From contig CACZCK010000001.1 of the NCBI GenBank assembly GCA_902779675.1, positions 1 through 64,000 on the forward strand: a DNA stretch of 64,000 nt, read 5' to 3'. Each line of letters starts with the position of its first letter. Within the stretch, counting starts at the first letter, position 1. Both the position numbers and the translations under genes were made by a program. This document shows, in pieces, positions 46,557 through 52,110 of the stretch. Source of the stretch: an uncultured Coriobacteriaceae bacterium (GTDB taxonomy: Bacteria; Actinomycetota; Coriobacteriia; Coriobacteriales; Atopobiaceae). The notes beneath the pieces were generated by a model that was not told the DNA's origin, made no database searches, and saw only the letters and a list, made by a program, of their open reading frames with translations.

Positions 46557-46766
46557 CTATGCGATGCTCGCCTTGTAGCCAGCCTCCTCGACTGCCGTCA
46601 CCAGGGCCTTGTCACTCACCAGCAGTCCGGCGTCGACGACCGCCGTTCCCTCGTCCAAGCTCACGCGTACGTTCTTGACGCCCTTGACGCCCTCGAGTGC
46701 CTTGGTGACATGCGCCACGCAGTGCTCGCACATCATGCCTTCGACGTTGAGCTTCTTCTCCTTCAT
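46557..46766 (-). CDS. Candidate internal start giving a free CopZ-like chaperone
   Basis: The frame is the C-terminus of copA. The internal ATG at 46766 has GGGAG-acgaggac upstream and yields [20 protein letters not shown]..., 69 residues, the normal length of CopZ. This is an in-frame overlapping product, not a separate gene. It is only a candidate. Confidence 0.4.
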
Positions 46767-49127
46767 GTCCTCGTCTCCCTCCGCCTCTCGCGAGGCATCG
46801 TCCAACTCTGTCGTGACCAGCGCCGCGGGAACGTCTCGCGACGCAGCGTGTTCGGCCGGCTTCCAGGTGCGCAGCCGCAAAGCATTGCTCACCACAAACA
46901 CCGACGAGAATCCCATGGCTGCGGCCCCGATCATGGGGTTGAGCGTAATGCCCAGCGGGCTGAGCACGCCCATGGCGACCGGTATGCAGATGGCGTTGTA
47001 GAACAGCGCCCAGAACAGGTTCTGGCGGATGGTGCGCATGGTGGCGCGACTCAGCTCGACGGCCGTGGCAACGTCGCGCGGATCCGAGTGCATGAGCACG
47101 ACATCGGCCGACGAGATGGCCACGTCGGTGCCCGCCCCGATGGCAACGCCCACGTCGGCTCGGGCGAGCGCCGGCGCATCGTTGATGCCGTCGCCGACCA
47201 TGGCCACCTTCTCGCCAGCCTCCTGCAGTTGGCGCACGTGCCGCTCCTTCTGATCGGGGAGCACGCCGGCCACCACCTCGTCCACACCGCAGGCACGCGC
47301 CACCACAGCGGCCGTGCGCTGCTGGTCACCGGTCAGCATCACGGTGCGGATGCCCATGGAGCGCAGCCGCGAGATGGCCTCGGCACTGGTGGGCTTGATG
47401 GCGTCCGCCACTGCGACCACTCCCAGCAGCCGCTCATCCTCGGCAATGAACAGCGGAGTCTTGGCCTCGTCCGCCAGGGCAGCTGCCTGCACGCTCAGCG
47501 CCGACGTGTCGATGCCACGGGCGTGCATGAGCCCCTCGTTGCCTGCGAGCACGCGGCTGCCATTGACTTGCGCCACGAGGCCCCCACCTGCCACCTGCTC
47601 GAAGTCGCGCACCTCGGCACCGACATCGATGCCCGGCGCCTGCTCATCAGCGTAGGCCACGAGCGCCAGCGCCAGCGGATGCTCGCTCTTGCGCTCCAGA
47701 GCGGCGACGTCAAACAGCAGCTCCACGTCGGTGGCCCCAGGGGCGAGCAGCACGTCGGTGACGCGAGGCGAGCCCTCAGTCACGGTGCCGGTCTTGTCGA
47801 GCACCACCGTGGTGAGCCCGCAGGCCGTCTCGAGTGCCTCGGCGTCCTTGATGAGGATCCCATTTGCCGCACCGCGCCCGGTGCCCACCATAATGGCGGT
47901 GGGCGTCGCCAGGCCCAAGGCACACGGGCAGCTGATGACCAGCACGGAGATGGCATGGGTGAGCGCTGTGGCAAAGTCGTGCGACATGGCCAGCCAAGCC
48001 ACGAGCGTGACAGCTGCGATGACCAGCACGACAGGCACGAAGACGCCGGCTATGGCGTCAGCCTGCCGCTGGATGGGAGCCTTTGACCCCGTGGCCTCGT
48101 CGACCAGACGAATGATCCCCGCAAGCGTGGTGTCGTCGCCCACGGCGCGCGCCTCCATGGCAAACCAACCATGGCTGCTCACCGTGGCCCCGGTCACGCG
48201 GTCGCCCACGATTTTCTCCACGGGCACCGACTCACCGGTGATGGCACTCTCGTCGATCAGGGCGCTGCCCTCGACCACCACGCCATCCACGGGAACCGCC
48301 TCGCCGGCACGTACGATGACACGGTCTCCCACCCGCACGTCCTCGCTCGGCACCACCTGTTCGCGGCCGTCGCGCACCACCGTGGCGGTCTTGGGGGCCA
48401 GGTCCATGAGTGCCGTGATGGCACTGGTGGTGCGGCCCTTGGCACGGGCCTCGAAGAACTTGCCCAGCGTGATGAGCGTGAGGATCATGCCAGCGGAGTC
48501 GAAGTAGAGCGAGTGTAGGGCCTCGTGAGCCGTCTGCATGTTGCCGGCGCCCATGGCGAGCGCCACGCGGTAGGTCTGCACGATGCTCCACACGGCGCTC
48601 GCGGCCGACCCGATGGCAATGAGCGAATCCATGTTGGGAGCACCGTGCGCGAGCGTCTTGAAGCCCATGACAAAGTAGCGCCGATTGACGAAGAGGATGG
48701 GTAGGCACAGCAGCAACTGAGTAAGCGCGTTGGCCATCATACCTTGCATGCCGGCAAGTCCCGGCAGCTCCGGCCAGCCGAACATGGGCCCCATGGCCAC
48801 GTAGAACAACGGCACCGAGAGGATGCCCGAGGCGATGAGCTGCCTGCGCCGCTCCTCGATCTCCCGCTGCGCGACGTCACCCACACCCGCCTGCTCGCCG
48901 CGAGCAGAGGCACGCTGGGCGCGCGGGTGCGCGCCGTAGCCCGCCCTGTCAATCGCGGCGCACACGGCCTCGACAGTGGCCTGGTCGCCATCGTAGACCA
49001 GCTCCATGCTGTTCTTGAGCAGGTTGACGTTAGCCTCGGTGACGCCTGCCACCTCGCCAGCCGCCTTCTGCACGCGCGCCGAGCAAGCAGCGCAGGTCAT
49101 ACCCGTTATGTCAAAAGTCTCTTTCAT
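46557..49127 (-). CDS. copA: Copper-exporting P1B-type ATPase with C-terminal CopZ-like domain
   Basis: An 856-residue Cu+-transporting ATPase. Residues 1-70 form an N-terminal heavy-metal domain (GMTCAACS). The core has the membrane CPC motif ([11 protein letters not shown]), phosphorylation motif [16 protein letters not shown] and the family SEHPLA. The last 69 residues are a second heavy-metal domain (GMMCEHC), unusual at the C-terminus. An ATG at 46766 (within [10 protein letters not shown]) is preceded by GGGAG at 8 nt and would make a free 69-residue CopZ. It follows csoR by 26 nt. Confidence 0.95.
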
Positions 49128-49152
49128 GGCGTGGCCTTTCGTGCACAGTGGG

Positions 49153-49446
49153 TCAGGAGAACTGCTTGAGGAGCGTCATGAGCTCGTCGACCACCTCGGT
49201 GTCGCCCTGCTGGACCCGCTCGACCACACAGGTCTCCAGATGGTCCTGCAGCACCAGGCGTCGCACCGAGCGTATGGCGCTCTCGGCAGCCGCGAGCTGC
49301 GTGAGCACGTCGCCACAGTAGCGGTCCTCCTCAACCATGGTCTTCACGCCGCCCAGCTGGCCGATGGCCCGGTTGAGACGGCGCTCCACGCTCCTCTTGA
49401 GCTCGTCCGAACGTGGTGTGTGCTTGGTGTGGCAGCAGTCCGACAT
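49153..49446 (-). CDS. csoR: CsoR family copper-responsive repressor
   Basis: A 97-residue four-helix CsoR/RcnR-type repressor. The metal ligands are recognisable: Cys in RYCGDVLTQ, His and Cys in LQDHLETC. CsoR releases its operator on Cu+ binding. The ATG at 49446 has AAGGG 6 nt upstream; the longer frame from 49500 runs into the operator. The operator lies 30 nt upstream, and copA follows on the same strand. Confidence 0.92.
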
Positions 49447-49473
49447 CTTGGTCCCTTCGTTGTCTTTCCCGAC

Positions 49474-49500
49474 AGTATACCCATGGGGGGTATATGTCAA
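49474..49500 (-). promoter_or_regulatory. csoR-copA promoter and CsoR operator
   Basis: The dyad TATACCC-n5-GGGTATA spans 49476-49494. On the minus strand it lies between a -35 TTGACA (49495-49500) and a -10 TATACT (49474-49479); the 15-nt spacer is short. The operator therefore overlaps the core promoter, the usual place for repression. Confidence 0.82.
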
Positions 49501-49614
49501 TCAATCGGCTCCGTGTTCCATGAGGGGCAGCCCCTTTTGGTACGGAGACGCCGACTGAGCCAGAGCACCCTCCCGTGCAGCGTGTCACAGTCTGGTTTCG
49601 GTATCGCGCTGACG

Positions 49615-49644
49615 TTGACGCAGAGGCTTTGATACGGCTATGGT
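49615..49644 (+). promoter_or_regulatory. Promoter for metNIQ leader
   Basis: TTGACG (49615-49620), 18-nt spacer, TATGGT (49639-49644). A start 7-8 nt downstream would fall at 49651-49652, on the ATG of the leader peptide. Confidence 0.6.
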
Positions 49645-49651
49645 TTCAACC

Positions 49652-49762
49652 ATGATTTACGCGTCCGCACATACGATGATGATGGCCATGATGGAGATGC
49701 CCAAGCCCGGGCAGCTTGCCATGACTCATGCGCATGGCAGGACCGGGCGCCTCCACGGATAG
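49652..49762 (+). CDS. Met-rich leader peptide upstream of metNIQ
   Basis: A short frame, 36 codons from ATG 49652 to TAG 49762, reading MIYASAHTMMMAMMEMPKPG and continuing Q-L-A-M-T-H-A-H-G-R-T-G-R-L-H-G. Residues 9-16 hold six Met in eight. No ribosome binding site precedes it; a promoter (49615-49644) places the transcript start at or next to the ATG, so it is probably leaderless. An in-frame ATG at 49640 would add four residues but lies inside the -10 box. This is the layout of an attenuator peptide for methionine. Confidence 0.65.
   Translation: MIYASAHTMMMAMMEMPKPGQLAMTHAHGRTGRLHG
49712..49755 (+). promoter_or_regulatory. Hairpin within leader coding region
   Basis: GCCCGG...TTGCCATG (from about 49704) pairs with CATGGCAG...CCGGGC (to about 49748), leaving a small loop. 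A second copy of TGGCAG at 49767-49772 could pair instead with TTGCCA, giving a mutually exclusive fold. The GGGGGTTTTAT at 49772-49782 is a weak T-rich terminator-like tail. Boundaries are approximate. Confidence 0.4.
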
Positions 49763-49817
49763 CCTCTGGCAGGGGGTTTTATCCACACCCCTTTCACTCA
49801 TCGAGCGGAGTAACTCA

Positions 49818-50561
49818 GTGATTTCCCTTCAGAACATCACGAAGGTCTATGACGGCAGCGATGTGCCCGCACTCGACGGCGTCTCCATCGACATCCCCGA
49901 TGGCGACATCTTTGGCATCATCGGCATCTCTGGCGCCGGCAAATCGACCCTCGTACGTTGCATCAACCTCCTCGAGCGCCCCACGTCGGGCCACGTCATC
50001 GTGGACGGAACCGACGTGACCGACCTTACGGGCGCCGAGCTGCGCGCATACCGCCGCCGCGTGGCCATGATCTTCCAGGGCTTCGGCCTGCTCGCGCAGA
50101 AGACCGCACTCGACAACGTGTGCTTCCCCTTCCTGGCAAGCAACGGTCGCGTGACGGCCGACGACCGCGCCAAGGCATCAGAGCTGCTCGCACGCGTCGG
50201 GCTCGCCGACAAGGCCGACAGCTATCCCGCACAGCTCTCCGGCGGTCAGCAGCAGCGTGTGGCCATCGCCCGCGCACTGGCCTGCGACCCGGAGTACATC
50301 CTGTGCGACGAGGCCACCTCGGCACTCGACCCGGCAAGCACCCAGCAGATCCTCGACCTGCTGCGCCAGATCAACGAGGAGACCGGCACCACCATCCTTG
50401 TCATCACCCACTCCATGGACGTGGTGGAGCGCATCTGCAAGAACGTGACCGTGCTGGTGCACGGCAAGGTGGTCGAGCAGGGACCGGTGGAGCAGGTCTT
50501 CGCCGACCCGCAGGACGAGACCACCAAGGCGCTGCTGGGAAGGGTGAGCTGGAATGCCTAA
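49818..50561 (+). CDS. metN: Methionine ABC transporter ATP-binding protein
   Basis: A 247-residue ATPase of the methionine (MUT) uptake family. Walker A GISGAGKST, signature [15 protein letters not shown] and Walker B ILCDEATSALDP are intact. The GTG at 49818 has GGAG 8 nt upstream. MetN usually carries a C-terminal NIL domain that inhibits transport when methionine binds (total about 340 residues); this one ends soon after VLVHGKVVEQGPVEQVFADPQ, so that control is missing. The stop overlaps metI by 8 nt. Confidence 0.93.
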   Translation: MISLQNITKVYDGSDVPALDGVSIDIPDGDIFGIIGISGAGKSTLVRCINLLERPTSGHVIVDGTDVTDLTGAELRAYRRRVAMIFQGFGLLAQKTALDNVCFPFLASNGRVTADDRAKASELLARVGLADKADSYPAQLSGGQQQRVAIARALACDPEYILCDEATSALDPASTQQILDLLRQINEETGTTILVITHSMDVVERICKNVTVLVHGKVVEQGPVEQVFADPQDETTKALLGRVSWNA

Positions 50562-51228
50562 CGTCACCGAGTTCGTTTCCGAGTACGGCGGGCTGCTGGC
50601 GCAGGGTACCGTCGACACCCTCGCCATGCTGTTCGTCTCAACGGCACTGGCCTACGTGCTGGGCATCGCCATCGGCGTGGTGCTCTACGTGACCTCGCCC
50701 ACGGGCCTGCGTCCCATGCCCGCGTTCAACGCCGTCCTCGGGTGGATCGTCAACATGACCAGGTCCATCCCCTTCATCATCCTGCTCGTAGCACTCATGC
50801 CCTTCACCAGGGCCATCGTGCACACCACCATCGGCGTGGTAGGCGTCACGCCGCCTCTGGTGGTGTCAGCCGCCCCGTTCGTGGCGCGCATGATCGAGCA
50901 GTCGCTCGCCGAGGTGCCGCGCGACGCCATCGAGGCCGCCGAGGCCTGTGGCGCCTCGATTCCGCGCATCGTGCGCAGCGCGCTGCTGCCCGAGGCACTG
51001 CCTTCCATCGTCCGTGGCGTGTCCATCACGCTCATCTCGGTGCTGGGCTACACCGCCATCGCCGGCGCCGTCGGCGCGGGCGGCCTGGGCGACATCGCCA
51101 TCCGCTACGGCTACTACCGCTACGAGGACGAGGTCATGGTCGTGACCGTCATCCTCCTCGTCGTTTTGGTGCAGGTCATCCAGAGCACCTGCGACGTCAT
51201 CGCAAACCGCATCGACCACCGCAAGTAA
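50554..51228 (+). CDS. metI: Methionine ABC transporter permease
   Basis: A 224-residue permease of the BPD_transp_1 type with about five membrane segments and the EAA loop (EAAEACGASIPRIVRSALLPEALP). The start overlaps metN by 8 nt and metQ follows 42 nt later. MetI forms the channel through which methionine is imported. Confidence 0.93.
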   Translation: MPNVTEFVSEYGGLLAQGTVDTLAMLFVSTALAYVLGIAIGVVLYVTSPTGLRPMPAFNAVLGWIVNMTRSIPFIILLVALMPFTRAIVHTTIGVVGVTPPLVVSAAPFVARMIEQSLAEVPRDAIEAAEACGASIPRIVRSALLPEALPSIVRGVSITLISVLGYTAIAGAVGAGGLGDIAIRYGYYRYEDEVMVVTVILLVVLVQVIQSTCDVIANRIDHRK

Positions 51229-51270: not shown

Positions 51271-52110
51271 ATGCTGACCCGTCGCAACTTCGTCACCTCC
51301 ACCCTCGGCCTCGCCGCAACCGCCACCCTCGCTGCCTGCGGCGGCAGCAGCGAGCCCGCCAGCGATGGCGCCGCCGAGAGCCAGACGCTCTCCGTGGCCG
51401 CCACGCCCGAGCCCCATGCCAAGATCCTCACCGAGTTCGCCGCCCCCAAGCTCGCCGAGCAGGGCATCGAGCTCGAGGTCAAGGAGTTCACCGACTACGT
51501 GCAGCCCAACGAGGTCGTCTACAACGGCGAGATCGACTGCAACTACTTCCAGCACATCAACTACCTGCGCGACTACGACGAGCAGAACGGCGAGGACCTG
51601 GTGTCGGTTGCCAAGATCCACTACGAGCCCTTTGGCATCTACGCCGGCAAGTCCGACGACCTGGCCAACATCGCCGACGGCGCTGTGGTGGCCGTGCCCA
51701 ACGACCCCACCAACGAGGCGCGCGCCCTGCTCCTGCTGCAGCAGGAGGGCCTGATCACCCTCAAGAACCCCGAGGATCTGGGCGCAACCCCCAACGACAT
51801 CTCCGAGAACCCCCACAACATCGAGTTCCGCGAGATCGAGGCCGCTGCCACCCCGCGTGCCCTCGAGGACGTCGACTTTGCTGCCATCAATGGCAACTAC
51901 GCCATCGAGGCCGGCCTGCACGCCACCGACGCGCTCGTGCTCGAGGAGGCGAGCGGCATCGCCTTCGAGGAGTACGCCAACATCATCTGCACCAGCGCCG
52001 ACAAGGAGAACGACGAGCGCATCGCCGCGCTGGTTGCCGTGCTGCAGACCGACGAGTTCAAGGCCTACCTCGAGGAGAACTTCGGCGAGGATGTGCTGCC
52101 CGCATTCTAG
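51271..52110 (+). CDS. metQ: Methionine-binding lipoprotein
   Basis: A 279-residue substrate-binding lipoprotein. The signal ends in a lipobox LAACGG (Cys near residue 23) with an N-terminal RRNF twin-arginine-like pair. Conserved MetQ blocks follow: ATPEPHAKILTEFAAPKLAEQGI, EFTDYVQPNEVV and YNGEIDCNYFQHINYL. It delivers methionine to MetNI. It is anchored on the outer face of the membrane. Confidence 0.92.
   Translation: MLTRRNFVTSTLGLAATATLAACGGSSEPASDGAAESQTLSVAATPEPHAKILTEFAAPKLAEQGIELEVKEFTDYVQPNEVVYNGEIDCNYFQHINYLRDYDEQNGEDLVSVAKIHYEPFGIYAGKSDDLANIADGAVVAVPNDPTNEARALLLLQQEGLITLKNPEDLGATPNDISENPHNIEFREIEAAATPRALEDVDFAAINGNYAIEAGLHATDALVLEEASGIAFEEYANIICTSADKENDERIAALVAVLQTDEFKAYLEENFGEDVLPAF

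Follow-up and report, generated by a model that had tools for sequence, protein, structure and literature searches.

Conserved methionine-codon leader upstream of metNIQ in two Coriobacteriales families as a candidate leader-peptide attenuator

The window, a 64,000-nt stretch of DNA from an uncultured Coriobacteriaceae bacterium (Atopobiaceae in GTDB), carries genes of a methionine ABC transporter on its forward strand: metN, encoding a 247-aa ATPase (49818–50561), metI, encoding the permease (50554–51228; NF008049, above cut-off), and the metQ/NlpA lipoprotein gene (51271–52110; PF03180, 3.5e-84). The best NCBIfam match of MetN, TIGR02314, falls below its cut-off, probably owing to the short length of the protein, which covers only positions 1–239 of the 343-position MetN profile; the C-terminal part that it misses is presumably the regulatory domain. 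Upstream and divergent, on the reverse strand, lie a gene for a CsoR-type repressor (PF02583, 49156–49446) and one for an apparent copper-type P-ATPase (46557–49127); a TATACCCATGGGGGGTATA stretch near 49476–49495 might be an operator.

Between these divergent genes and metN, a sigma-70-like promoter (49615–49644) consists of TTGACG (−35, 49615–49620), an 18-nt spacer and TATGGT (−10, 49639–49644). Only 7 nt separate the −10 box from an ATG at 49652, and a −10-like hexamer is kept 7–9 nt 5′ of the corresponding ATG in almost all relatives. This ATG opens the leader segment (49652–49817, directly 5′ of the metN GTG at 49818) and a frame of 36 sense codons plus TAG (49652–49762; stop at 49760–49762), whose predicted product is MIYASAHTMMMAMMEMPKPGQLAMTHAHGRTGRLHG. 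As the ATG coincides with the predicted transcript start, the frame is predicted to be leaderless, and transcription from it would make a ribosome-binding site unnecessary. The codons at 49676–49699 encode MMMAMMEM, six Met in eight residues; this run is kept in most relatives and is the proposed stall site. The Met-rich 36-codon frame between promoter and metN, named in a preliminary description of this DNA, is thus borne out by the sequence and its ORF reading as well as by homologous leaders in two families. An ACAUA element (49669–49673; ACAGA in some leaders) lies mostly at ATG+17 (15–20 in relatives), at a nearly constant spacing from the predicted transcript start, and its reading frame differs among genera.

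The preliminary description had also seen neither a SAM riboswitch nor a Met T-box. This is true of the leader: Rfam scans of 48500–50500 returned no SAM-I (S-box) or T-box match and no other Rfam family, and scans of ten relatives' leader loci returned no SAM-I or T-box match. It does not extend to the genome as a whole, which carries S-box and T-box-like matches elsewhere. Two S-box matches, at C31:10247-10354 and C16:84763-84858, each precede a frame identified by eye as metK; with a cut-off of 44.4 bits, one of them (46.2 bits) passes and the other (39.5 bits) does not. Two T-box-like matches, both below the Rfam cut-off, precede frames that visual inspection assigns to trpB and pheS. A MetE-type synthase (PF01717) was found in none of the 21 genomes searched, and the MetH activation domain gave a partial match only.

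Comparison establishes that the leader is conserved: it lies 5′ of metN in at least 83 genomes from two Coriobacteriales families, one represented by Olsenella and Thermophilibacter (Atopobiaceae, the window's own family) and the other by Collinsella and Enorma (hereafter Collinsella relatives). A DNA search of 41 genomes recovered it in relatives of the same genus, of the same family and of another family, with metN read after it in one of these genomes; three weak matches from this search lay inside or beside unrelated coding frames, with no leader seen there. MetN orthologues were found in 78 of the 140 family genomes, and 60 upstream regions were examined; 44 leaders had been collected by this stage. 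A covariance model run over 400 Coriobacteriia gave strong matches only in these two families, as a single copy per genome that lies beside metN wherever checked; weak matches also occurred outside them. The core of the leader was further scanned as an exact pattern through the GTDB contig collection (about 85,000 species genomes). Of 71 matches, 70 fall in Coriobacteriales (Olsenella, Thermophilibacter, Collinsella, Enorma and uncultured relatives), and metN was confirmed next to the core in 68. Two contigs stop short of where the gene would lie, and the sole match outside the order, in Paraburkholderia kirkii, has no adjacent metN and was taken as chance. The core is absent altogether 5′ of some metN genes of the same family. 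In one relative, TAG replaces the AAG codon of the core, so that the frame would stop after M-L, and a weak core remains.

The spacing of start codon and core points to a coding function. ATG-to-core distances take nine lengths (39, 42, 45, 48, 51, 54, 57, 60 and 81 nt) and are a multiple of three in 83/83 leaders; the leader frame has 292 ATGs among its 1200 codons 5′ of the core, whereas only 4 and 0 occur in the remaining two, in counts that include close relatives and are uncorrected for kinship. From these two observations, the comparison indicates that selection maintains the short frame, and it suggests that the frame is translated. Its end is likewise constrained. The stop codon follows strand C (see below) in 60 of the 83 leaders, and in 50 of these 60 it lies exactly 14 nt from C although the intervening hairpin P2 varies in length; in the other 23 the frame ends before C. 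Late-stop leaders are richer in Met (mean 4.0 versus 2.3, p = 3e-7, uncorrected for kinship). Collinsella relatives carry MMMVMEM-type runs, and in some Atopobiaceae genera only one or two internal Met codons are left, though RNA core and frame are retained. Met density is therefore not universal among the leaders.

The frame runs into a structured RNA. The core ATGCCCAAGCCCGGGCA (49697–49713), near-invariant in the leader alignments, contains strand A (UGCCC, 49698–49702) and strand B (GCCCGG, 49705–49710); it is followed by the variable hairpin P2 (49714–49742) and by strand C (CCGGGC, 49743–49748), which pairs with B. All six B:C pairs are formed in 100% of alignment cells; the stem is invariant in an alignment of 51 closer relatives, and two distant relatives have substitutions in both partners of two of its pairs. 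Strand A can pair with B too, and in two relatives A:B pairs likewise have both partners substituted. A pairing C′:D5′ (GGAGAC:GUCUCC) that would link B:C to hairpin D is striking in several leaders and, overall, not significant (p = 0.11).

Hairpin D (GGAUAGCCUCU-GGCA-GGGGGUUUUAUCC, 49757–49784; −12.6 kcal/mol in the window) has the strongest covariation: 9 of its 10 pairs are changed on both sides across the 51 leaders, and none of 500 shuffles matches the observed values. The stop codon sits within its 5′ arm here and at its foot in most leaders, as expected from the earlier claim that the end of the frame overlaps a hairpin. An alternative hairpin T (AGGGGG...CCCCU followed by UU, 49771–49793) takes the 3′ arm of D. 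A T-like hairpin using this arm, at −6 kcal/mol or better, is predicted in 63 of 68 leaders of very different sequence, and a leader's own downstream strand E pairs better with its D 3′ arm than the E of other species does (permutation p < 0.0005 overall and in Atopobiaceae; p = 0.08 in Collinsella relatives alone), although column-wise covariation is weak for a single fixed register of T. These comparisons support D and T as mutually exclusive folds. An alternative pairing had already been proposed, through a TGGCAG repeat; the repeat is present in two copies, one in CATGGCAGGACC and one at 49767–49772, but is a trait of the window's genus, and across relatives the alternative takes the form of D versus T with a common arm.

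Taken as a methionine-codon leader-peptide attenuator of metNIQ, which we consider the probable function of the segment, the leader may work as follows. Transcription would begin at the leader ATG, with the ribosome initiating directly on it. When methionyl-tRNA is scarce, the ribosome would stall in the Met run, 5′ of the core, allowing B:C (with P2) and D to form. When methionine is ample, it would proceed to the stop codon, placed at the base of D in the majority of leaders, where its footprint would open B:C and cover the 5′ arm of D, leaving the 3′ arm to form T. Formation of T would lower metNIQ expression, so that methionine shortage would switch import on. The output we favour is premature termination, most plausible in Collinsella relatives with UUCUU after T. 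An untranslated leader would fold as a stalled one does, with D favoured; this would suit methionine, since starvation for it also lowers initiation.

Folding with ribosome-covered stretches masked, a model of the RNA fold and not a measurement, gave 0.00 for D and 0.51 for T with a ribosome at the stop in 55 late-stop leaders, against 0.59 and 0.22 with a stalled ribosome and 0.60 and 0.18 for free RNA. In the 13 early-stop leaders modelled, the terminating ribosome blocks B:C and D persists in all states, so the model fails to explain an output there, and for the window leader stalled and terminating ribosomes are not separated (T 0.57 versus 0.49). Our confidence in the attenuator is accordingly moderate. 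The signal after T also differs between the families: at least four U within 8 nt follow T in 15/35 leaders of Collinsella relatives, many with a UUCUU-type tail, and in 1/28 leaders of Atopobiaceae, nearly all of which lack the tail. Intrinsic termination is therefore doubtful in the window's own family. The proposal of a methionine attenuator peptide before metNIQ is nonetheless supported by conserved Met runs, frame and alternative hairpins, with Met density as the variable element; the alignment of metNIQ leaders from relatives that had been suggested as a check came out in its favour, Met-codon runs being conserved in two families and start, frame and alternative hairpins kept.

A broader version, which we hold tentatively and as less probable than the attenuator itself, views the leaders as a previously undescribed class of methionyl-tRNA sensors limited to the two Coriobacteriales families; both the stalled and the untranslated state would be ON, and the 5′ end would additionally hide the metN ribosome-binding site. 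On this account the two states would share the ON fold because initiation itself requires methionine.

The near absence of a U tract after T in Atopobiaceae gives weight to a different output for the same Met-codon leader, namely control of metN translation through a long-range helix P0, though we regard this as unlikely. Its 5′ strand (UCCGC...CGAUGA, 49664–49679) would pair with UCAUCGAGCGGA (49798–49809), which covers the metN ribosome-binding site (Shine-Dalgarno CGGAG, 49806–49810; GCGGAG is conserved), so that nt 4–17 and the first Met codons would mask the site and a stalled ribosome would free it, as in erm-type translational attenuation. The free fold of the window leader pairs the Shine-Dalgarno sequence with the 5′ end at a probability of 0.99 (mean 0.41 over 81 leaders), and the 5′ end of a leader matches its own Shine-Dalgarno region better than those of other leaders (p = 0.0004 overall, 0.009 in Atopobiaceae, 0.13 in Collinsella relatives), with a mean z of −1.2 versus −0.4 for other leader segments. 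In register, 81% of cells are paired, against at most 47% when the strands are slid. Comparative support for P0 is thus moderate; however, its covariation is mostly one-sided, its register varies between genera, and the accessibility gained upon stalling is predicted to be small (0.25 to 0.36). Control through P0 would also leave the fixed position of the stop codon at D and the D/T pair unexplained.

Far less probable is a metabolite-binding riboswitch, for methionine or SAM, with a short frame present by chance. The near-invariant core, a hairpin whose GGCR loop is conserved and the nearly fixed distance of ACAUA from the 5′ end would suit such an element, but A:B and B:C pairing accounts for the conservation of the core, the leader lacks an Rfam match, and a riboswitch would not need a frame that has been retained through many length changes. 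More improbable still is nascent-peptide arrest, in which MP[K/S]PGH itself would arrest the ribosome in the presence of methionine or SAM. The leaders do keep MPxPGH, and the stop codon may follow shortly after this motif, yet the x codon (AAG, TCG, ACG, CAG or TTG) varies at bases 1–2, its B:C-paired third base being G in aligned leaders, and two relatives have P replaced by L and G by E or K with the RNA pairs retained. Amino acids that vary while B:C holds look like the result of selection on RNA, which argues against arrest. A copper-linked role, raised by csoR and the likely copA upstream, was rejected, as the leader is followed by metN and not by copper genes in the relatives checked.

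The favoured methionine-codon attenuator resembles the trp, his, ilv and leu attenuators in its short frame, where codons for the amino acid under control occur in a run, in the downstream gene for that amino acid and in a stop codon near mutually exclusive hairpins. In contrast to them, it would be methionine-specific, is predicted to be leaderless and has a weak or absent U tract. The ribosome-free fold favours D, the predicted ON state, unlike that of trp, whose untranslated leader terminates. S-box riboswitches and Met T-boxes also control methionine genes through RNA 5′ of the start codon, whereas the leader matches neither in Rfam and the S-box matches of this genome precede metK. A further parallel is metL of Streptomyces lividans, an attenuator predicted before metNIQ in one strain (PMC8079986), likewise with a leaderless transcript and hairpins without a typical Rho-independent terminator; its peptide MSTTSDRTPATEATTTPGARCMCRRMCAF, compared by eye at the peptide level, lacks the MPxPGH core and contains just two internal Met. 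No conserved RNA structures were found before methionine operons in the Actinobacteria surveyed by Seliverstov et al. 2005 (PMC1262725). Our literature search, which covered few subscription journals, returned S. lividans metL as the only metNIQ leader peptide and no other methionine leader peptides.

If the proposal is correct, it raises the question of how a leader that itself starts with methionine can signal methionine shortage. Common gut bacteria would then possess a conserved methionine-codon attenuator, working alongside metK SAM riboswitches in the same genome, and would have one sensor for methionyl-tRNA and another for SAM.
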